Assembly: GCF_001989615.1 (NCBI RefSeq)
Contig: NZ_CP019067.1
Span: 1,860,001 to 1,924,000 of the forward strand
Direction of reading: 5' to 3'
Origin: Halorientalis sp. IM1011
GTDB taxonomy: Archaea; Halobacteriota; Halobacteria; Halobacteriales; Haloarculaceae
Length of the DNA stretch: 64,000 nucleotides
Shown one piece after another: positions 7,917 through 16,356 of this stretch (positions within the stretch are counted from its first letter, which is position 1; each line of letters opens with the position of its first letter). The notes under the pieces were generated by a model that saw nothing but the letters and a program-made list of their open reading frames with translations, was not told the DNA's origin and made no database searches. The position numbers and the translations under genes are program-made.

Positions 7917-8837
7917 TCACTCCCCGCCCGTCCACTGCCCGAGCAGGTCCAGCTGATGGGTCACGTAGACGAGTTCGCCGGACGTGACCTGCTTCCGGCG
8001 CGTCCGGAGCCAGTCGTCGAGCGTGTCGTCGTCGAGCCCCGCACCCCTGTCGACCTCCCCGAGTGCGCCCTCGATCGTCCGCAGGACGTACTGCAGGAAG
8101 TACGCCTCGTCGTCGGGATACCCGCTCTCGTCCGGGTAGACGACCCAGTCCGATCCCGCGACGCCCGACACCGTCGCCCCGTCCAGGTCCCGGAGTCGCG
8201 TCAGTGCGTGGTGACCCGCGCGGCTGTCGCCACCCGGCTTCGCGTCCATGTGGTCGTGGTACGCGCGCTCGACGGCGTCGTCGGCCGGGTGGTCCGGGGT
8301 GAACCGCGTCCCGCCGTCGAAGGTGATCGGGAAGTACCAGTGCCCGCCGGGCGCGAGCCCGGACAGAAGCGTCGGTAGTGTCTCCAGTCCGAGTACGTCG
8401 AGGACGGCCAGGCCGACGAGCAGGTCCCAGGTCCGGTCGGCGTCGGCGACGAAGGCCCCGGCCTCGGCGGTCACGGGCCGCACAGCGATGGTTCGCTTCG
8501 GCCAGACGAGGTCGATCCCGTCGTCGCGTTCGCTGACCTCGACGGGGCGGTCGGCCGCCCAGTCCGCGAGGCGGTCGGAGATCGTCCCGACGACCTCCGC
8601 GTCCCGGTCGACGGCGGTGTAGACCACGTCCCGGTCCCCGGGGAAGAGGTCCCACTCGACGGCCCGTTCGATCATCGTCCCGACCCCGGGTCCGACCTCC
8701 AGCACGCGGAACGGTCCCTCGTCGTCGGCCGCCGTCGCGAGGGTCATGCGGAGCTGTCGCCAGAGTCGCCGGTCGAGACTCCGGTCGTCGACGGACCGCT
8801 TGGCGTCGAGGTACCGCCGGAAGTCGTCGGCCGTCAT
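7917..8837 (-). CDS. SAM-dependent methyltransferase-like protein
   Basis: A 306-residue Rossmann protein with FRVLEVGPGVGTMIERAVEW (SAM motif I, about residues 43-62) and VVYTAVDRDAEVV (motif II acidic residue). The C-terminal half is specific to this group. The target is unknown. It is the last gene of a tightly packed series (PTPS, glycosyltransferase, methyltransferase); its ATG overlaps the glycosyltransferase stop by 4 bases and has GGAGGGG 8 bases upstream. The context suggests it methylates a product of the neighbouring glycosyl/pterin enzymes. Confidence 0.75.
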   Translation of the reverse strand: MTADDFRRYLDAKRSVDDRSLDRRLWRQLRMTLATAADDEGPFRVLEVGPGVGTMIERAVEWDLFPGDRDVVYTAVDRDAEVVGTISDRLADWAADRPVEVSERDDGIDLVWPKRTIAVRPVTAEAGAFVADADRTWDLLVGLAVLDVLGLETLPTLLSGLAPGGHWYFPITFDGGTRFTPDHPADDAVERAYHDHMDAKPGGDSRAGHHALTRLRDLDGATVSGVAGSDWVVYPDESGYPDDEAYFLQYVLRTIEGALGEVDRGAGLDDDTLDDWLRTRRKQVTSGELVYVTHQLDLLGQWTGGE

Positions 8838-9904
8838 GCGGCGACCCCTCCGTCGCCGGCCACTCCGTGCAGGAACTCACGGACCCGGGCGGTCGTTTCG
8901 GGCCAGTCGGGGTGGGCCTCGTATCGCTCCCGCGCCGCCCGCCCCATCCGGGCGAGGCGGTCGCGGTCCCGGGCGAGTGCGCCCAGCACTCGCGTCACGC
9001 CCTCGGAGTCGTCGGGGTCGACCAGCGCGCCCGTCTCCCCGGGTGTCACGAAGTCCCGCGCTCCGCCCGCGGCCGACGCGACCGCCGGTAGCCCGAAGCT
9101 CATCCCCTCCAGATAGGCGATGCCGAAGCCCTCGTGGCGGGCGGGGATCGCCAGGACGTGACTCCGCCGGAGCACGGCCGCGAGCTCGTCGTCCGGGAGT
9201 CGCCCGCGCATGTCGATGCGGTCGCCGGCACCGCTGCGGGCGATCTCGTTCTCGACCCGCCGGACGTACGACGGATCTTCCGCCCGCCCGACCACCGTCA
9301 ACTCCCATGGTTCGTCGACCTCGGCCAGCCCGTCGACGAGCGTGTCCAGCCCCTTCCGGGGCTCGATGTTGCCGACGAAGGCAACTCTCAGTGGCCCCTC
9401 GTGCGCCCGCGTGTCGATGGTCGCGGCGTCGATGTCGGGATCGAAGCGGTCGCCGGCGGGTGGGGCGACGACCGTTCGATCTTCCGGGGGGCCGCCGGTC
9501 TCGGTCACTGTGGCCCGGGTCGCGGTGCTATTGCAGACGGCGGCGTCGACGCCGCCGAGGTAGCGGCGCTCGACGGCACGGTAGAGGCCGGCGAGGTGGC
9601 GACCCTCGCTGGCTCGCAGGTGGTGGACGACGCTGACGACCGGATACGGCAGGTCGCGGTTCACCCGGAGGAGTGACGGGTGGGCGAGTTCGTCCTGTAA
9701 CATTACGTCCACGTCGACCTGGAGTCGGTCGCGCAGCGAGGGCGAGAGATTGTCGAGCAGGCCGCGAGTGTACCGGCGGCGCGGGAGTTCGATCACGTCG
9801 ACGGTTTCGCCGGCGTCACGGAGCCCGTCGACGAGTCGCCGATCGTACCGGAATCCGCCCGACTGCCCGTCGAGACTCCCGTACAGGGTCAGGCCGACGC
9901 GCAT
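8834..9904 (-). CDS. GT4-family glycosyltransferase
   Basis: A 356-residue GT-B enzyme. Near the N-terminus is a glycine-rich acceptor loop (LDGQSGGFRYDRRLVDGL). The donor half has VAFVGNIEPRKGLDTLVDGL, the retaining GT4 signature HEGFGIAYLEGMSFGLPAVAS (E-x7-E) and GARDFVTPGETGALVDPDD. It transfers a sugar from a nucleotide donor to an unknown acceptor. The gene overlaps the PTPS gene by 16 bases and the methyltransferase by 4, so all three are co-translated. Confidence 0.9.
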   Translation of the reverse strand: MRVGLTLYGSLDGQSGGFRYDRRLVDGLRDAGETVDVIELPRRRYTRGLLDNLSPSLRDRLQVDVDVMLQDELAHPSLLRVNRDLPYPVVSVVHHLRASEGRHLAGLYRAVERRYLGGVDAAVCNSTATRATVTETGGPPEDRTVVAPPAGDRFDPDIDAATIDTRAHEGPLRVAFVGNIEPRKGLDTLVDGLAEVDEPWELTVVGRAEDPSYVRRVENEIARSGAGDRIDMRGRLPDDELAAVLRRSHVLAIPARHEGFGIAYLEGMSFGLPAVASAAGGARDFVTPGETGALVDPDDSEGVTRVLGALARDRDRLARMGRAARERYEAHPDWPETTARVREFLHGVAGDGGVAA

Positions 9905-10281
9905 GGAACGGACGCCTCGTACGCCGCGTGGGCCTCGTCGTCTTCCCAGATCGTTACTGCGACCTCCGTCACCGTGTCGTCGGTCACATCTTCGGTGACC
10001 CGCTCCCAGACTGCCTTTGCGAACCGCTCGACGCTCGGATTGTGCCCCTCGAACTCCGGCAGGTCGTTGAGCATCGTGTCGGCGTAGCGACTGTGGAGTC
10101 CGTCCAGCGCCGCCTCCACGTCGTCGATGTCGACGAGGTAGTCGAACTCGTTCAGTTCCGGCCCCCTGAACGTGAGTTCGACCTCGTATCGGTGGGAGTG
10201 TGGCTCCCCCTCCGGCCCCGCGTCCGGGACAGTGAGAAAGTGCTGTGCGACGAACGACTCCAGCACCGTGACCGTGTACAT
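9889..10281 (-). CDS. 6-pyruvoyl-tetrahydropterin synthase/QueD homologue lacking the catalytic Cys
   Basis: A 130-residue protein of the PTPS/QueD fold, read from ATG 10281 (MYTVTVLESFVAQHFL). An in-frame GTG at 10308 gives nine extra residues not expected in the family. Zinc ligands are present as H14 (AQHF) and H28/H30 (EPHSHRYEVEL). The Cys that normally stands five residues before the HxH pair is missing, with Glu24 and Glu26 nearby, recalling PTPS-III enzymes that use Glu and make 6-hydroxymethylpterin. The later DYLVDIDDVEAAL and GHNPSVERFA motifs are intact. It is embedded between dehydrogenase and glycosyltransferase genes rather than with queC/queE. Confidence 0.85.
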   Translation of the reverse strand: MYTVTVLESFVAQHFLTVPDAGPEGEPHSHRYEVELTFRGPELNEFDYLVDIDDVEAALDGLHSRYADTMLNDLPEFEGHNPSVERFAKAVWERVTEDVTDDTVTEVAVTIWEDDEAHAAYEASVPCASA

Positions 10282-10377
10282 GTAGAACCTACCACGGTCC
10301 GTCGCCACCTAAGTGTCCCGCCGCTGCCGAGAGGCTGTGGCCGCGTCGTCTGGGGGTCTCCCGTCGGTCGTTGCTCC

Positions 10378-10482
10378 CCGTTCGGCCAGTCGGTGGCTCT
10401 CCCGCTGGTCGAGCCGCCCGGTTCACGGCGTCTCCGTCGCCGTTCGGCCAGTCGGTGGCTCTCCCGCTGGTCGAGCCGCCCG
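10378..10482. repeat. Two perfect 43-bp direct repeats, period 62
   Basis: Bases 10378-10420 and 10440-10482 are identical (starting CCGTTCGGCCAGTCGGTGGC, ending GAGCCGCCCG), separated by 19 bases. Each holds an imperfect hairpin (GGTGGCTC...GAGCCGCC). The second copy touches the stop codon of the minus-strand dehydrogenase gene, so in the transcript the pair lies between that gene and the PTPS gene. Confidence 0.9.
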
Positions 10483-11487
10483 CTACTCGTACGTCAACAC
10501 GACACCCAGCGCGCGCTCGGGGGCGTCGTCGAGCAGTTCGTAGGCGTCGTCGGCCTGCTCGACGGGGAACTCGTGGCTGAAAAGCGCTGACACGTCGATC
10601 TCGGCCAGCAGGTCACGCACCAGCGAGAGCCGTCGTTCCTTGTCCCAGCGGCCGGCGTGATCCGGGTCGATGCGGCTGACCTGACTGCTCTGGACCCGGA
10701 CGTGGCTCCGGTGGAACTCCCCGCCGAGGTGCAGGGTCGCCGGCTTGTTGCCGTACCACGAGCCGACGATCACCTGCCCGGCGTAGCCCGTCGCGTCGAT
10801 GGCGTCGTCGAGCGCGTCCGGGTTGCCCGAAAGCTCGAAGGTCAGGTCAGCGCCGTCGACGTGTTCGGTCGCCACCGCATCGCCGAGCGCATCGGCGTCG
10901 GCCACGGCCCTGTCCGCGCCGAGTCGCTCCGAGATCTCCCGTCGCCGCGCGTAGGGGTCGACGGTCACCAGTTCGCCCAGCGGGAACTCCGAGAGGACGG
11001 CGGTCGTCAGCAGGCCGACGATCCCCTGCCCGAAGACGGCGACCCGGTCACCGACCCGCGGGCGGCCGTCCATCACGAAGTTGACTGCGGCCTCGGCGTT
11101 GGCCAAAAGCGTCGCGCGCTCGGCGGGCTGATCGACTGGGATCAGTTCCGAGGGGGTGGCGAGGAAGTGACTCTCGTGGGGGTGGAACGCGAACACGCGC
11201 CGCCCCTCCCAGTCGGCGTCGACGTTCGCGCCGGTCGCAGTCACGCGGCCGACGGCCGCGTAGCCGTACTGGAGCGGGTACGAGAGGGTTCCGTCGAGCG
11301 CGTCGATGGTCTCGTCGATCTCGATGCCGGCCGGCGCTTCGTCCCGGTAGAGCAACAGTTCCGTGCCGGGGCTGATGGCCGAGCGTTCCGTCCGAACGCG
11401 AACCTGGTCAGGTCCGGGGTCCGGGACCGGTCGCTCACGAACCGCTACCTCACGCGGGCCGGTGAAATACAGCGAGCGTGCAGCCAC
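10483..11487 (-). CDS. MDR-superfamily dehydrogenase
   Basis: A 334-residue medium-chain dehydrogenase/reductase with the GroES-like N-terminal half (RSAISPGTELLLYRDEAP) and a Rossmann half VGDRVAVFGQGIVGLLTTAVL. The SAISPGTE segment resembles the threonine-dehydrogenase/BchC-like subgroup rather than typical alcohol dehydrogenases. The usual GHExxG and structural four-Cys zinc motifs are absent, so zinc binding is doubtful. It probably oxidises or reduces a sugar or polyol in the cluster's pathway. A 26-residue leaderless reading frame lies directly in front of it. Confidence 0.82.
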   Translation of the reverse strand: MAARSLYFTGPREVAVRERPVPDPGPDQVRVRTERSAISPGTELLLYRDEAPAGIEIDETIDALDGTLSYPLQYGYAAVGRVTATGANVDADWEGRRVFAFHPHESHFLATPSELIPVDQPAERATLLANAEAAVNFVMDGRPRVGDRVAVFGQGIVGLLTTAVLSEFPLGELVTVDPYARRREISERLGADRAVADADALGDAVATEHVDGADLTFELSGNPDALDDAIDATGYAGQVIVGSWYGNKPATLHLGGEFHRSHVRVQSSQVSRIDPDHAGRWDKERRLSLVRDLLAEIDVSALFSHEFPVEQADDAYELLDDAPERALGVVLTYE

Positions 11488-11493
11488 GGTCGC

Positions 11494-11574
11494 TCACCCC
11501 CGGACGCGGTAGCGACGGTCGTCGATCCGATTCGTGCGCTCGGGCCGGAACGTCGACGGGGGCTGAATCGCCAT
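11494..11574 (-). CDS. Possible leaderless 26-residue leader peptide
   Basis: An ATG at 11574 opens a frame MAIQPPSTFRPERTNRIDDR... that stops at 11494, six bases before the dehydrogenase ATG. A TATA-like TTTTATC (minus strand, about 11597-11604) sits 26 bases upstream, exactly the distance used by leaderless genes in this window. The peptide is basic and polar. It could be a short leader ORF coupling translation to the dehydrogenase, or simply untranslated leader. No family recognised. Confidence 0.35.
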   Translation of the reverse strand: MAIQPPSTFRPERTNRIDDRRYRVRG

Positions 11575-11654
11575 GGCAGTGCCAAGGGCTGTAGCTGATA
11601 AAAGCTGTGTGTGGCGGAAATCCAGTACAGACGCCTCGTTGCGCGTATGCATAG

Positions 11655-12554
11655 TTAGCGATACCCAAGCGCCGCCAGCCGGTCGGTCGCGTCCCCGTCC
11701 CCGTACACGCGCCCCACAGGCAGGGGTTCCGGCGGGGACAGCGTCGGTTCGTACGTCCCCCGATCCCGCCCGTCGGTCTCGACCCACGGGACGGTCACCA
11801 GCGCCGGTACCGGCGTGTGCATCGGGTGCCCGTACAGCCCCCATTCCCCGAAGAGGTTGGCGTGATCGGCCGTGATCACCGCGCGGTCGGTACTGACGTT
11901 GTCGAGGAGGACCGCCACCGACTCCAGGACGTACCGGAGGTTCGCCTCGTAGGCCCGCCGCACGCGCTCGACGGAGACCTCGCCGCGCCGGAGCGCCACC
12001 CACGGGTTCGCGTCGCTACTCCGTGCGCCGGTCCGGGCCATCCCCTCGTCACCCGCGACAGGGTCCGGGACGAACGGATGGTGGGGCTGCATGTAGTGGA
12101 CGACCAGACGCTCGGGGTCTCGATCACGGGCCAGCGCGACCGCTCGGTCGGTGATCGCTCCGGCAGGGACGGTCCCGAGTCCCCCGTCCCACGCGTACTT
12201 CCAGACCTCGTCGAGGGCGGCGAAGGCGTCGGCGTCGAGGTACCGGTCGGTCCAGGTGTTGCCCGTCACCATGGCCGTCCCGGCGACGGCGTCGACCCGT
12301 TCCGGGTCGAACGTCCGGGTCAGCCACTCCGAGGAACAGCTGCCGACAGACCGCACTCGGTCGACCTCGCCGACGAACGCGAACGAGGGAGCGACGGTCG
12401 CCAGCGCGTCGGGTCGACAGCCGTCGAGGACGATCAGCAGGTCCCACTCGCGTTCGTAGACCGAGGTACCGTAGTCGAGCCGGTGCCCGACCGTCTGGAT
12501 CGCCCGGAGGACAGACTGCCGGAGCGGGCCGCGGCCCGCGTCGTCGGCGAGCAC
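11655..12554 (-). CDS. Alkaline-phosphatase/sulfatase-superfamily protein
   Basis: A 299-residue protein with the superfamily's ordered metal motifs: WDLLIVLDGCRPDAL (nucleophile strand), VGSCSSEWLTRTF, VVHYMQPHHPFVPD and AVITADHANLFGEWG with the Asp-His pair. Haloarchaeal members are often encoded near cell-surface glycosylation genes and may transfer or hydrolyse phospho- or sulfo-groups on glycans or lipids. No signal peptide is evident. It follows the small membrane gene at 12561 by six bases, and an isolated promoter separates it from the dehydrogenase downstream. Confidence 0.82.
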   Translation of the reverse strand: MLADDAGRGPLRQSVLRAIQTVGHRLDYGTSVYEREWDLLIVLDGCRPDALATVAPSFAFVGEVDRVRSVGSCSSEWLTRTFDPERVDAVAGTAMVTGNTWTDRYLDADAFAALDEVWKYAWDGGLGTVPAGAITDRAVALARDRDPERLVVHYMQPHHPFVPDPVAGDEGMARTGARSSDANPWVALRRGEVSVERVRRAYEANLRYVLESVAVLLDNVSTDRAVITADHANLFGEWGLYGHPMHTPVPALVTVPWVETDGRDRGTYEPTLSPPEPLPVGRVYGDGDATDRLAALGYR

Positions 12555-12560
12555 GACCGG

Positions 12561-12929
12561 CTACCCCTCGCGTCGGTACAGCACCACCAGCACGACGACG
12601 AAGACGACCTGTACGGCCTTGTCGAGGTAGCCGAGCGGCGAGAAGTCGGGCGCGTTCACCAGGTACCAGGCGACGATCTGGACGGCGGTGAACGGGATAC
12701 CGACGGCGTAGACGAGCCGACGGCGGTAGTCGACCGCGACCAGCGCCGCGCCCACGAAGAACCCGATTCCGGCCAGCAGGAAACTGATACCCACCGGCGA
12801 CGTGACGAACTGCACCCCGAGCCAGAGGTGGAGGACACCCGTGATCGCCGCGAGGCCGAACGCCACCCAGTGCAGCGGCGACAGCGATGCCGTGTCGATC
12901 GCGAGTCCGCCCGAGGCTGTCTCTGTCAT
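12561..12929 (-). CDS. Small four-helix membrane protein
   Basis: A 122-residue polytopic protein with hydrophobic segments at about residues 20-41, 46-66, 71-91 and 100-118, and the acidic N-terminus expected of haloarchaea. No enzymatic motif is visible. It is the first gene of the minus-strand operon; a minus-strand TATA-like CAAAATTGA at 12950-12958 lies 25 bases upstream of the ATG. It is divergent from the fusion gene at 13012, with just 82 bases between them. Confidence 0.75.
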   Translation of the reverse strand: MTETASGGLAIDTASLSPLHWVAFGLAAITGVLHLWLGVQFVTSPVGISFLLAGIGFFVGAALVAVDYRRRLVYAVGIPFTAVQIVAWYLVNAPDFSPLGYLDKAVQVVFVVVLVVLYRREG

Positions 12930-12980
12930 AGCCCTAGTGGGGACGCGAGTGGCTTCAATTTTGGCCGCGACCCGGCCGTG

Positions 12981-12988
12981 AATTTATG
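12981..12988 (+). promoter_or_regulatory. TATA box of the 13012 operon
   Basis: AATTTATG is centred 27 bases before the GTG at 13012, predicting a leaderless mRNA. The 82-base divergent region also carries the opposite-strand box at 12950-12958, so both halves of the cluster could be controlled together. Confidence 0.6.
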
Positions 12989-13011
12989 CCACTCAATCCC
13001 TGTCTAGGGAT

Positions 13012-14997
13012 GTGAACTGCCTGTTCGTGGGTGCGGGGGCCGTCGCCGACCGGTACGCGGCCGGGCTCGCGGACGGCCCGCTCACGCTCGCGGGCGTCTG
13101 TGACACCGACGGCCGCCGGGCCGAGCGGCTGGCCGCCCGCCACGACGCCGCCGCGTTCGCCGACCTCGACGACGCACTCGCCGCCTGTGACGCCCCGGTG
13201 GTCGTGAACCTCACGAGTCACGGTGCCCACGCGACCGTGACGCGGCGCTCGCTCGCCGCCGACCGCCACGTCTACAGCGAGAAACCGCTCGCGCTCGACG
13301 CCGACACCGCCCGTGACCTGCTGGAACTGGCCGCCGACCGCGACCGCGCGCTGGGCTGTGCGCCCGTCGCGCCGCGATGTCCGGCACAGCGACTCGCGGG
13401 GCGCGCCGTCGCCGACGGGCGACTCGGCCGGGTCGGACTGGGCTACGCCTACGCCCACGTCGGCCGGGTCACCGAGTGGCACCAGAGTCCGGATGGCTTC
13501 CTGTCGGTCGGGCCGCTGTACGACGGCGCGGTCTACCCGCTCACCGTCCTCGTCGCGCTCTTTGGCCCCGTCGAACGGGTCCGCACCGCAGACGCGCTGG
13601 ACGTGTGGCCGGCCCGCGAGTCCGCGACCCCGGAGGCCCCGACCCACGTCGAGGCCACTCTCGAATTCGTCTCGGGGCCGGTCGTCCGCCTGACCGCGAG
13701 TTTCTACGCGCCCCACCGGAGCCGGGAGTTCTACGGCGTGGAACTCCACGGCGACGACGGCTCCCTGCGACTGCAGGACGCCGGCGCGCTCGACGCCGAC
13801 ATCGACGCCGTCTCCTTCGGCCGGCAGGGCCGCGAGTACACCCCCATGCCCGTCCAGCGGCCGACCAGCGCCGGCACCTACCCTGACGGCGTCGAACGGC
13901 TGGCGGCCGCGGTGGCCGACGGGCGACGGCCCCGGGCGACCGCCCGCCGCGGTGAACACGTCGTCGCCGTCTGTGAGGCCGTCGAACGCGTCGCGACGGG
14001 GACCACAGCGGGCCCCCTGCCGGTTCCCGATCCGGGCGTGACACCCACCAGACCCTCGCGACCGATCTTCCGGCCGCGGCGAGACGCGTCCGGCGGGACG
14101 ACCGAGCCAGTGAGCCGGTCGCTCCGCCTCCCACCGATCGGGTTCGGCTGTTCGCGCTACCGCGGCGGCGACGAGTACGTGGATCGGGTCGAGTCCATCG
14201 CGACGGCGCTCGACGCCGGGTACCGCCTGCTGGACACCGCGGAACTGTACGGCAACGAACACCGGATCGGGGACCTGCTGGCCGCGCCCGGGACGCCGGA
14301 TCGCGAGACGCTGTTCCTGTTCGGGAAGGTCTGGAACACGAACCACGGCCACGTCGAGGAGGCGTGTGCCGGGAGCCGCGCCGAACTCGGGATCGAGACC
14401 TTCGACTGCTACGCCCTGCACTGGCCCGACTCGTGGGCCTATCAGGGGCCGCTCGAACGACTGGCGGAGAAACCGGTCGCCGAGCAGGAGGCCATCGCCT
14501 TCCCGGAGGACGAGACCGGCGAGACCCCCACCGTCGATCGGTCGCTCACCGACTCGTGGGCCAATCTGGAGGCGATCCACGACCGGGGGTGGGCGCGGAC
14601 GCTCGGGCTCTGTAACGTCACCAGAGCGCAGATCGAGACCGTACTGGAGACGGGTTCGGTGAAACCCGCGGTCGTGCAGGTGGAGCGCCATCCCTACCGG
14701 CCGCGGACGGAACTCGTCGACTTCTGCCACGAGCGGGGGATTCGCGTCATCGCCCACTCGCCGCTGTCCGCCCCCGGCCTGCTCTCGGAACCGGTCCTCG
14801 ACGAGATCGCGGCCGACCGTGGGCTCTCGCCCGCCGCGGTCGTCCTCGCGTGGAACGTGACCGAGGGAGTCGTACCGATTCCATCGAGCAACGACGCGGC
14901 CCACGTCGTCGCCAACCTCGCAGCGGCCGGCGAACGACTGGACGCCGAGGCCAGAAACCGGATCGCGACCCTCGAAGATCCGGAGTTCGAGCGATGA
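13012..14997 (+). CDS. Fusion of Gfo/Idh/MocA oxidoreductase and aldo/keto reductase
   Basis: A 661-residue two-enzyme polypeptide. Residues 1-~340 are a Gfo/Idh/MocA dehydrogenase (CLFVGAGAVADRYAAGLADG NAD loop, YSEKPLALD with the catalytic-type Lys, SPDGFLSVGPLYDGAVYPL). After a short Pro/Arg-rich linker, residues ~375-661 are an aldo/keto reductase with its full tetrad: Asp and Tyr in LLDTAELYGNE, Lys in FLFGKVWNTNHG, His in CYALHWPDSW, then the cofactor segment VVPIPSSN. Both halves look active. I start at GTG 13012 from the TATA spacing. The product probably processes a sugar or polyol substrate; its stop overlaps the next ATG. Confidence 0.88.
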   Translation: MNCLFVGAGAVADRYAAGLADGPLTLAGVCDTDGRRAERLAARHDAAAFADLDDALAACDAPVVVNLTSHGAHATVTRRSLAADRHVYSEKPLALDADTARDLLELAADRDRALGCAPVAPRCPAQRLAGRAVADGRLGRVGLGYAYAHVGRVTEWHQSPDGFLSVGPLYDGAVYPLTVLVALFGPVERVRTADALDVWPARESATPEAPTHVEATLEFVSGPVVRLTASFYAPHRSREFYGVELHGDDGSLRLQDAGALDADIDAVSFGRQGREYTPMPVQRPTSAGTYPDGVERLAAAVADGRRPRATARRGEHVVAVCEAVERVATGTTAGPLPVPDPGVTPTRPSRPIFRPRRDASGGTTEPVSRSLRLPPIGFGCSRYRGGDEYVDRVESIATALDAGYRLLDTAELYGNEHRIGDLLAAPGTPDRETLFLFGKVWNTNHGHVEEACAGSRAELGIETFDCYALHWPDSWAYQGPLERLAEKPVAEQEAIAFPEDETGETPTVDRSLTDSWANLEAIHDRGWARTLGLCNVTRAQIETVLETGSVKPAVVQVERHPYRPRTELVDFCHERGIRVIAHSPLSAPGLLSEPVLDEIAADRGLSPAAVVLAWNVTEGVVPIPSSNDAAHVVANLAAAGERLDAEARNRIATLEDPEFER

Positions 14998-15758
14998 GCG
15001 GGACCGAACGCGCCCGTCTCGCTCGGCGACGCCGACGGTGGCTGTTCCTCGGCTGTGGAACCGTGCTGGTGCCGACGGTCGGCGCGGCCGCGCTGGCACG
15101 GCTGGTCGACCCCGCCGGGGCGGCCGCGTGGGCGCTCGTCGTGGTCCCGATCGTGGGGTACGAGGCCTGGTTCTACCACTCCCGGCACGACCGGGTGCCG
15201 ACGGCGGGACCGGCGTTGCGGGTCGCCGACGCCGTCACGCTGGTCCGCGGGTGGCTCTACGCCGCCGTCGCCGGCTTCGCCGTCCTGTCGCCGACGGCGC
15301 TGGTCGCCTGGCTCCCGGGGCTCTGCTACGGCACCGGCGTCGCTCTCGACTGGCTCGACGGGCGGATCGCCCGCCGGACGGGCGGGGGCACGCGGCTCGG
15401 CGAACGACTCGACATGGCGTTCGACACGCTGGGCTTTCTCGTCGCACCGGTCGTCGCCGTCGTCTGGGGACGGCTCCCGGTCTGGTACCTGTCGCTGTCG
15501 GCCGCCCGGTACCTGTTCAAGGCCGGGCGCGGGCTCCGCCGCTGGCGGGGCCAGCCGGTCCACGACTTGCCGCCCAGCGAGCGGCGCCGACAGCTGTCGG
15601 GCCTGCAGATGGTGTTCGTCACCGTCGCGCTGGTCCCGCTCGTCCCGCGGGAGCCGCTCGCGGTCCTCGCCGCCGTGGTGCTGACGCCGTCGCTGGCGCT
15701 GTTCGCCCGGGACTACCTGCTCGTGGCCGGCTACCTGCCGCGAGCGGCGGAACAGTGA
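14994..15758 (+). CDS. CDP-alcohol phosphatidyltransferase
   Basis: A 254-residue integral membrane protein with several hydrophobic segments. The diagnostic signature begins at residue 119, DWLDGRIARR, and continues ERLDMAFD, matching D-x2-D-G-x2-A-R...G-x3-D-x3-D of CDP-alcohol phosphotransferases. Such enzymes link CDP-archaeol or CDP-alcohols to a polar hydroxyl compound, making phospholipid head groups. The ATG at 14994 overlaps the preceding TGA (ATGA). Given its partners, the acceptor could be a polyol or pterin-derived head group; that is inference. Confidence 0.9.
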   Translation: MSGTERARLARRRRRWLFLGCGTVLVPTVGAAALARLVDPAGAAAWALVVVPIVGYEAWFYHSRHDRVPTAGPALRVADAVTLVRGWLYAAVAGFAVLSPTALVAWLPGLCYGTGVALDWLDGRIARRTGGGTRLGERLDMAFDTLGFLVAPVVAVVWGRLPVWYLSLSAARYLFKAGRGLRRWRGQPVHDLPPSERRRQLSGLQMVFVTVALVPLVPREPLAVLAAVVLTPSLALFARDYLLVAGYLPRAAEQ

Positions 15759-15798
15759 TACCCGCGCCGTGCCAACTCCCGGGCCGGACCGCACAGGC

Positions 15799-16356
15799 AT
15801 GATGGCACCGACGCACGTCGTGGTCGGGCTCGCACTCGGGGCAGCCGTCGCGACCGTCGAGCCGGCGCTGGGGACCGCCGCCGCGGTCGGCGGCGCGATC
15901 GGCGGTGCCGCGCCCGACGTGGATCTGTTCGTCGGCCAGCACCGCCGGACGCTCCACGCGCCCGCACTGCTGTTCGTCCCCGCGGCGCTGGCCGTCGGCC
16001 TCGCGCTGGCCGCACCGACGCCGCTGTCGGTCGCGGTCGCGGTCGCCTTCCTCGCGGCGGCCGTCCACTCCGCCAGCGACGCGCTCGGGGCCGGCGAGGA
16101 ACTGCGACCCTGGGAGCGGACCAACCCAGACGCCGTCTACTGCCACGCCGCTGGCCGCTGGCTGCGTGCCCGGTACGTCGTCCCCTACGACGGCTCACCG
16201 CGTGACTTCCTCGTCACGGCCGCGTTCGCCGTGCCGGTCGTCCTCGTCTTCTCGGGGCCGATCCGCTGGGTGACGCTCGCGCTCGTCGCCGGTGCCGGCG
16301 TCTACACCGCCCTGCGCAAGCGGCTCCCGAAGTACTTCGAACCCATCGTCGCGTGA
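15799..16356 (+). CDS. DUF457/YdjM-like membrane-bound hydrolase family protein
   Basis: From ATG 15799 (or 15802) the product is ~185 residues with four or more membrane segments. It opens MMAPTHVVVGLALGAAV, carrying the early His of the YdjM/DUF457 family, followed by GGAIGGAAPDVDLF and AAVHSASDALGAGEELRPWERTN with further Asp and His residues that could bind metal. The molecular activity of the family is not established. It follows the phosphatidyltransferase by 40 bases and closes the plus-strand operon. Confidence 0.75.
   Translation: MMAPTHVVVGLALGAAVATVEPALGTAAAVGGAIGGAAPDVDLFVGQHRRTLHAPALLFVPAALAVGLALAAPTPLSVAVAVAFLAAAVHSASDALGAGEELRPWERTNPDAVYCHAAGRWLRARYVVPYDGSPRDFLVTAAFAVPVVLVFSGPIRWVTLALVAGAGVYTALRKRLPKYFEPIVA

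Follow-up and report, generated by a model that had tools for sequence, protein, structure and literature searches.

The structure of the Streptomyces coelicolor protein SCO6650 (PDB 3d7j) was reportedly solved in 2008 without assignment of a function; the protein is said to have no PTPS activity and no zinc and to retain a pterin-like pocket. Within the PTPS family, the motifs of PTPS-I, PTPS-II and PTPS-III have been reviewed, PTPS-IV has been linked to F420 synthesis by unpublished work, and the role of PTPS-V is unclear (PMC5041015). PTPS-IV carries the signature FGPAQ, and the available text of the AGeNNT study describes a RibA-RibD_C-PTPS-IV neighbourhood of 561 sequences in which the PTPS homologue lies beside GTP cyclohydrolase II (GCH II; PF00925) and RibD_C; that text describes no core of MDR dehydrogenase, PTPS, GT4 glycosyltransferase, methyltransferase and CDP-alcohol transferase, no sulfatase, no archaeal counterpart and no pathway (PMC5445326). 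Here, we analyze such a core in the haloarchaeon Halorientalis sp. IM1011, in a stretch of 64,000 nucleotides (contig NZ_CP019067.1, positions 1,860,001 to 1,924,000; hereafter the window), where it includes a Cys-less PTPS-family protein. The haloarchaeal operon can be tied to the bacterial cluster that holds SCO6650, and we propose, with a probability of roughly 55%, that the cluster makes a GTP-derived, probably pterin-like metabolite that is glycosylated and methylated.

The bacterial PTPS-IV neighbourhood has already been noticed in part, and its product has not been named. As far as we searched the literature, neither the archaeal version with GTP cyclohydrolase III (GCH III) nor a shared core that extends to the CDP-alcohol transferase has been described, nor has a start from GTP been argued; nothing usable was obtained on the cluster itself, on phosphohalopterin, on pterins bearing sugars or on SCO6650. 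Should the product prove to be a membrane-linked pterin carrying a sugar and a methyl group, both prokaryotic domains would have this type of cofactor or lipid in common. About 140 haloarchaeal and hundreds of bacterial genes, called "6-carboxytetrahydropterin synthase" in the annotated records examined, are probably misannotated. The link across the domains makes the pathway question testable in tractable organisms.

Conservation of the gene cluster in Halobacteria

A sample of 242 Halobacteria genomes was searched for relatives of the window PTPS, and 145 contained one, two of these (G046 and G236) with weak QueD-like matches only. In 118 loci of about 15 to 20 kb around the PTPS genes, genes were called, families were clustered and neighbours were counted within 8 genes of the PTPS. 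These counts refer to the 113 loci in which the PTPS was recovered; since the sampled genomes are related, they do not represent 113 independent events. The MDR dehydrogenase was present in 95 loci, the methyltransferase in 91, GT4 in 82, the CDP-alcohol transferase in 74 and the small membrane protein DUF7475, on either strand, in 73. ArfA, a GTP cyclohydrolase III, was near the PTPS in 36 loci and always on the same strand. As a control, 20 random regions of 19.5 kb each were taken from these genomes. Among the 118 PTPS loci, 101 were above the threshold for MDR, 92 for the methyltransferase, 84 for GT4, 72 for the CDP-alcohol transferase, 76 for DUF7475, 37 for Gfo and 35 for AKR, whereas none of the 20 random regions reached the threshold for any of these families. 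The cluster loci span at least nine family groups of Halobacteria with many rearrangements, and MDR-PTPS is the most stable pair.

The archaeal core is MDR-PTPS-GT4-methyltransferase, joined by the CDP-alcohol transferase, DUF7475 and a GTP cyclohydrolase. A first-pass annotation of the window had taken the genes to act together and had made this claim dependent on their being neighbours in other haloarchaea as well. Indeed, the core is kept as neighbours across haloarchaea, far above the level of random regions, and a functional unit is therefore favoured. The expectation that all seven families co-occur was too strong, because the Gfo/Idh-AKR fusion (37/113 loci), the phosphatase-like protein (25/113) and the YdjM-like protein (9/113) are variable, lineage-specific accessories. 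ArfA and the sharing of the cluster with bacteria had been overlooked.

Some loci depart from this arrangement. In L046, L143, L144 and L149, PTPS and MDR do not lie on the same strand, GT4 and methyltransferase are missing, and ABC-transporter-type genes (f33, assigned from sequence) follow beyond MDR; in L143, a DAO-type oxidoreductase adjoins the PTPS. In H2, H3 (plasmid of Haloarcula marismortui ATCC 43049) and L112, the clusters are otherwise intact but the PTPS coding sequence runs over two frames, so the gene is probably broken or frameshifted in these sequences.

A bacterial counterpart of the haloarchaeal cluster

Bacterial loci were reached by tblastn of MDR and PTPS against plasmids. 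The core cluster is shared with many bacteria of soil and sea and was found in Rhizobiales, Rhodobacterales, Thiodictyon, Streptomyces and Microbacterium. The order MDR>PTPS>GT4>methyltransferase, that of operons with an SCO6650-type PTPS, was the same in Rhizobium, Methylosinus, Thiodictyon, Streptomyces and Microbacterium as in the window; Rhodobacteraceae SC52 has MDR>PTPS>methyltransferase. A scan of GTDB genomes with an alignment of the bacterial PTPS gave at least 587 relatives. For neighbour counts we used 67 loci with both flanks, drawn from the 80 nearest to a Rhizobium query and from the plasmid loci, a set dominated by Alphaproteobacteria. MDR was present in all 67, the methyltransferase in 66, GT4 in 57, RibD_C in 52, the CDP-alcohol transferase in 38, GCH II in 35, a sulfatase in 31, and LPG_synthase_TM, FkbM and cytochrome b561 in 29 each. 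When the haloarchaeal loci were searched with the bacterial RibD_C, cytochrome b561, LPG_synthase_TM and sulfatase queries, no counterpart was found; the FkbM query gave one weak match and the creatininase query five.

The core proteins of the two domains are related in sequence. Archaeal and bacterial GT4 are 30% identical over the full length (E = 4e-32), and matches were also obtained for the CDP-alcohol transferase (E = 6e-13), the PTPS (E = 4e-8) and the methyltransferase (E = 6e-7 over the C-terminal part, with invariant residues in common). The MDR dehydrogenases are 33 to 35% identical and have the invariant S-x-GTE, PxxYGY and PH motifs in common. The CDP-alcohol transferase has the complete motif DxxDGxxARx8GxxxDxxxD, which reads DWLDGRIARRTGGGTRLGERLDMAFD in the window, and scored 68.6 bits against the enzyme of the Streptomyces cluster versus at most 36.6 bits against its two paralogues in its own genome; being nearer to the Streptomyces enzyme, it belongs to the set shared between the domains. 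As with SCO6650 and PTPS-IV, whose homologues lie in operons with MDR, GT4, methyltransferase and CDP-alcohol transferase, the window PTPS is part of a conserved gene set, and the locus is, as judged from these similarities, the haloarchaeal form of a biosynthetic cluster common to bacteria.

The Cys-less PTPS protein is a relative of PTPS-IV

The window PTPS has the motif AQH..LTVP.PGPEGxxHSH. Across the archaeal family, the metal-ligand residues H14, H28 and H30, like the ring-binding E113, are nearly invariant. The T-fold, the His ligands and the Glu are features in common with QueD (PTPS-I). Unlike QueD, however, the protein does not have the CxxxHGH motif: ExxxHSH is found in 110 of 113 aligned archaeal members, the catalytic Cys being replaced by Glu (EGEPHSH in the window, correctly described as Cys-less before). 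The catalytic Asp-His pair (D70-H71 of Escherichia coli QueD) is also replaced, with YADTMLND in the window versus LDHHYLND in E. coli. In SCO6650 and PTPS-IV, too, the Cys/Asp/His triad is gone and the ring-binding Glu is kept.

The protein might be a QueD that makes preQ0 for archaeosine or queuosine without the usual Cys, and annotation pipelines do name it 6-carboxytetrahydropterin synthase. Genus g39 also speaks for this: in the five genomes checked, the Cys-less protein is the sole PTPS, and in the four loci read (L056, L058, L059 and L147) it lies beside queC and queE. However, not only are Cys, Asp and His all replaced, but this genome has a separate, complete queD-queE-queC set with the motif CSRPHGH about 196 kb away. 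Moreover, genomes G006 and G147 have the cluster and no full-length queC match, and G006 has no second PTPS. Since the separate set exists and the cluster occurs in genomes without queC, a main role as QueD was rejected, and we consider this reading extremely improbable. In genus g39, a secondary QueD role of the Cys-less PTPS is possible; it may have replaced QueD there, or QueD may have been lost. Adjacency to queC or queE was found only in this genus and is absent in the window, as the first-pass annotation had stated. A second, distant QueC-like protein is encoded on another replicon of the Halorientalis genome (C2:188349-188918, 84 bits).

The replacement of Cys by Glu recalls PTPS-III (ExxHGH), and haloarchaeal processing of the dihydropterin side chain is incompletely assigned (PMC8305020), so that a PTPS-III- or PTPS-VI-like enzyme supplying 6-hydroxymethyl-dihydropterin for folate might be considered. 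However, the Glu of the window protein is one position further upstream, at the position of the PTPS-I Cys, and HSH stands in place of HGH. The gene is missing from about 40% of Halobacteria, and GT4, methyltransferase and CDP-alcohol transferase are foreign to folate synthesis. A main role as PTPS-III in folate synthesis, which is quite improbable, was rejected because of the motif position and the patchy distribution.

The solved structure that best matched a profile of archaeal sequences only was SCO6650 (3d7j; E = 3.5e-16 over the whole length), whereas QueD matched over part of the length with an E value of 2e-10. By fold, the AlphaFold model of the PTPS (pLDDT 94.7) likewise came closest to 3d7j (TM score, 0.87). 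In a tree, QueD and rat PTPS were separated from the archaeal and bacterial PTPS, which formed two sister clades (support, 95/84), each with 99/99; the support for their joining is only moderate because of long branches and a midpoint root. The FGPAQ signature is absent: the window has (P)GPEG, with GP alone in common, and the archaeal GPEGxxHSH retains three His ligands, whereas PTPS-IV has FGPAQxxHGA with one His lost. We therefore regard the window PTPS as related to PTPS-IV without assigning it to that subfamily.

The closeness to the PTPS-IV-type SCO6650, together with the reviewed link of PTPS-IV to F420, raises the question of a role in F420 or FO synthesis, the more so as GTP cyclohydrolase and ArfC feed riboflavin and F420 alike. 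Against this, the F420 core enzyme CofG is encoded in all 242 Halobacteria genomes, whereas members of the PTPS family occur in about 142; F420 synthesis hence proceeds without the PTPS. In addition, F420 needs a deaminated uracil and no deaminase is present in the clusters, and GT4 and methyltransferase have no place in the known route. A main role in F420 synthesis was rejected because CofG is universal and the PTPS family is not, and any such role is very improbable.

GTP as the probable starting compound

The ArfA encoded in the window matched NCBIfam NF002587 with 410.7 bits (cut-off, 306) and is the second copy in this genome, the other being 1 Mb away. At least two ArfA copies were found in 27 of 142 Halobacteria genomes with the PTPS versus 5 of 100 without it (p = 9e-4). 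In the ArfA tree, 13 cluster copies and one other copy form a deep clade; the window copy falls into another subclade, also associated with the cluster, and the other ArfA of its genome is not its sister. The cluster copies thus form at least two groups and not one clade, indicating repeated recruitment.

The riboflavin route via ArfA, ArfB and ArfC uses the same GCH III family, and arfA is required for riboflavin in Haloferax volcanii (PMC8305020). The cluster differs from that route in that the genome has another ArfA elsewhere. All five genomes of genus g6 (G078, G088, G139, G144 and G050) carry a bacterial-type GCH II, which could serve their riboflavin synthesis; the four without the PTPS have no ArfA, and the PTPS-bearing G050 has its sole ArfA inside the cluster. 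Apart from this cluster copy, the genus has lost the archaeal GCH III.

In the bacterial clusters, the position of the GTP cyclohydrolase is taken by GCH II, as in the RibA-RibD_C-PTPS-IV neighbourhood; in the window, the nonhomologous GCH III holds this place, and RibD_C is encoded only elsewhere in the genome. The switch residue of GCH II (Tyr105 in E. coli) is Tyr in 43 of 43 proteobacterial cluster enzymes and Met in both Streptomyces enzymes. With Met at this position, SCO6655 reportedly stops at the formyl intermediate, like GCH III. A creatininase gene adjoins GCH II in exactly the two Met-bearing Streptomyces loci, a sample too small and too closely related to allow statistics; creatininases also lie close to the cluster in L086 and in four loci of the Haloarcula type. 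Deformylation of that formyl intermediate has been described for a creatininase-family protein of Sinorhizobium meliloti (PMC9478397). In the Rhizobium cluster, RibD_C and GCH II (RibA) each stand alone, unfused to a deaminase or RibB domain, which argues for a 2-amino, pterin-like compound rather than riboflavin. Since two nonhomologous cyclohydrolases, GCH II in bacteria and GCH III in archaea, accompany the same core, a start from GTP via a formylamino- or diaminopyrimidine is well supported.

Proposed pathway and product

In the first step of the pathway, GTP would be opened by ArfA in archaea and by GCH II in bacteria; where the cyclohydrolase goes no further than the formyl compound, a creatininase-type formamidase would remove the formyl group. 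The ribosyl chain would then be reduced to a ribityl chain, in archaea by ArfC encoded elsewhere and in bacteria by the stand-alone RibD_C of the cluster (step 2). As the cluster contains no deaminase, the 2-amino group typical of pterins would be kept. In step 3, the MDR dehydrogenase may oxidize a side-chain hydroxyl and the Cys-less PTPS-fold protein may bind the 2-amino-4-oxo ring and close or rearrange the second ring. GT4 would add a sugar and the methyltransferase a methyl group (step 4), and in most lineages the CDP-alcohol transferase, with accessory phosphatase-like proteins, could link the product to a phospho-alcohol or lipid (step 5). The gene set and its order, its conservation, the homology across the domains, the additional cyclohydrolase and the lost catalytic triad are observed, and the cyclohydrolase, reductase and transfer reactions of steps 1, 2 and 4 are inferred from the enzyme families; the chemistry of the MDR and PTPS step, the pterin core, the lipid link and the product are put forward as inference only. 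Glycosyl transfer to a pterin would have its analogue in the pterin glycosides cyanopterin and solfapterin, but the cluster adds a dehydrogenase and a CDP-alcohol transferase to such systems and has GCH II or GCH III instead of GTP cyclohydrolase I (GCH I).

A more specific version, which we regard as doubtful, is a pterin route without GCH I or MptA that ends in a membrane-bound glycopterin of archaea and bacteria. GCH II or GCH III and RibD_C or ArfC would give 2,5-diamino-6-ribitylamino-4(3H)-pyrimidinone 5'-phosphate. MDR would oxidize its 2'-hydroxyl to a ketone, on which the 5-amino group would close the ring on the Cys-less PTPS-fold protein, yielding 7,8-dihydroneopterin 3'-phosphate. 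GCH I makes 7,8-dihydroneopterin phosphate through an Amadori rearrangement. The pterin would then be glycosylated, methylated and joined to a membrane lipid by the CDP-alcohol transferase.

The CDP-alcohol transferase, near the PTPS in 74/113 archaeal and 38/67 bacterial loci, would also suit a lipid head-group or polyol pathway without any pterin. There, Gfo/Idh, AKR and MDR would make a polyol phosphate, the CDP-alcohol transferase would join it to CDP-archaeol, GT4 and the methyltransferase would decorate it, and the PTPS fold would be repurposed, as the loss of its catalytic triad could suggest; a PAP2 phosphatase family (f21) found in ten archaeal loci fits as well. However, the Gfo/Idh-AKR fusion occurs in just 37/113 loci, the ring-binding Glu is invariant, and the GTP cyclohydrolases II and III, RibD_C and creatininase of the clusters are left unexplained, so we judge this pathway unlikely. 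The first-pass annotation had proposed a polyol-, sugar- or pterin-linked lipid head group or a membrane-bound glycopterin; the data are best fitted by a pterin-like product that derives from GTP and carries a sugar and a methyl group, and the only evidence for the lipid part is the CDP-alcohol transferase.

Several points weigh against the GTP-derived, pterin-like product. MptA already gives haloarchaea dihydroneopterin (PMC8305020), so there would have to be a reason for a further pterin route. The bacterial RibD_C query detected no such gene in the haloarchaeal clusters, and the enzyme of step 2 must therefore be borrowed. ArfA lies nearby in a minority of loci (the 36 of 113 given above), and in many of these it is the sole copy, which must then also serve riboflavin. 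About a third of the archaeal loci have no CDP-alcohol transferase, and any lipid link could therefore not be universal. Finally, some Streptomyces plasmids hold an orphan copy of the PTPS without the cluster. Three such SCO6650-type copies away from the cluster (L274, L275 and L276) lie near cupin, BTAD regulator and sigma-70 genes, often also near MBL-fold and MEKHLA genes.

Gene organization of the window

The genes named in the first-pass annotation were all confirmed at their given positions, as two divergent sets separated by an 82-nt gap (Table 1). Its gene overlaps were likewise found, 4 nt between methyltransferase and GT4, 16 nt between GT4 and PTPS, and ATGA between the AKR stop and the ATG of the CDP-alcohol transferase at 14994. 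The ArfA gene lies 79 nt downstream of the end of the methyltransferase gene on the same strand. Most family names held, with weaker grounds for the methyltransferase and the phosphatase-like protein, neither of which has a Pfam match. The methyltransferase is named after homologues annotated as class I SAM methyltransferases, and its profile matched only the generic SAM-binding part of structures in the PDB. For the phosphatase-like protein, the AlphaFold model (8 sequences) had a pLDDT of 47 and gave no fold match at E ≤ 0.001, the best nonsignificant match being to the alkaline-phosphatase superfamily.

Table 1. Features of the cluster, in coordinates of the 64,000-nt window
Feature	Position	Strand	Basis
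GTP cyclohydrolase III (ArfA/GCH IIa) paralogue, 261 aa	7052-7837	minus	NCBIfam NF002587
Class I SAM methyltransferase family	7917-8837	minus	homologue annotation; archaeal members without Pfam match
GT4 glycosyltransferase	8834-9904	minus	PF00534 above cut-off
Cys-less PTPS-family (T-fold) protein, 130 aa	9889-10281	minus	PF01242, 92 bits
MDR dehydrogenase, S-x-GTE motif, BchC/threonine-dehydrogenase-like	10483-11487	minus	
Putative alkaline-phosphatase/sulfatase-superfamily hydrolase, accessory	11655-12554	minus	weak PDB/fold matches to sulfatases and related proteins, none significant
DUF7475 small membrane protein	12561-12929	minus	PF24287 above cut-off
Divergent intergenic region, 82 nt	12930-13011		sequence
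Gfo/Idh/MocA oxidoreductase-aldo/keto reductase (AKR) fusion, accessory	13012-14997	plus	PF01408, PF22725, PF00248 above cut-off
CDP-alcohol phosphatidyltransferase	14994-15758	plus	PF01066 above cut-off, 53.4 bits
YdjM-like membrane protein, accessory	15769 (or 15799)-16356	plus	PF04307 just above cut-off

The gap between PTPS and MDR is filled, at 10375-10482, by a 46-nt direct repeat in two copies that are 98% identical and spaced by 62 nt.

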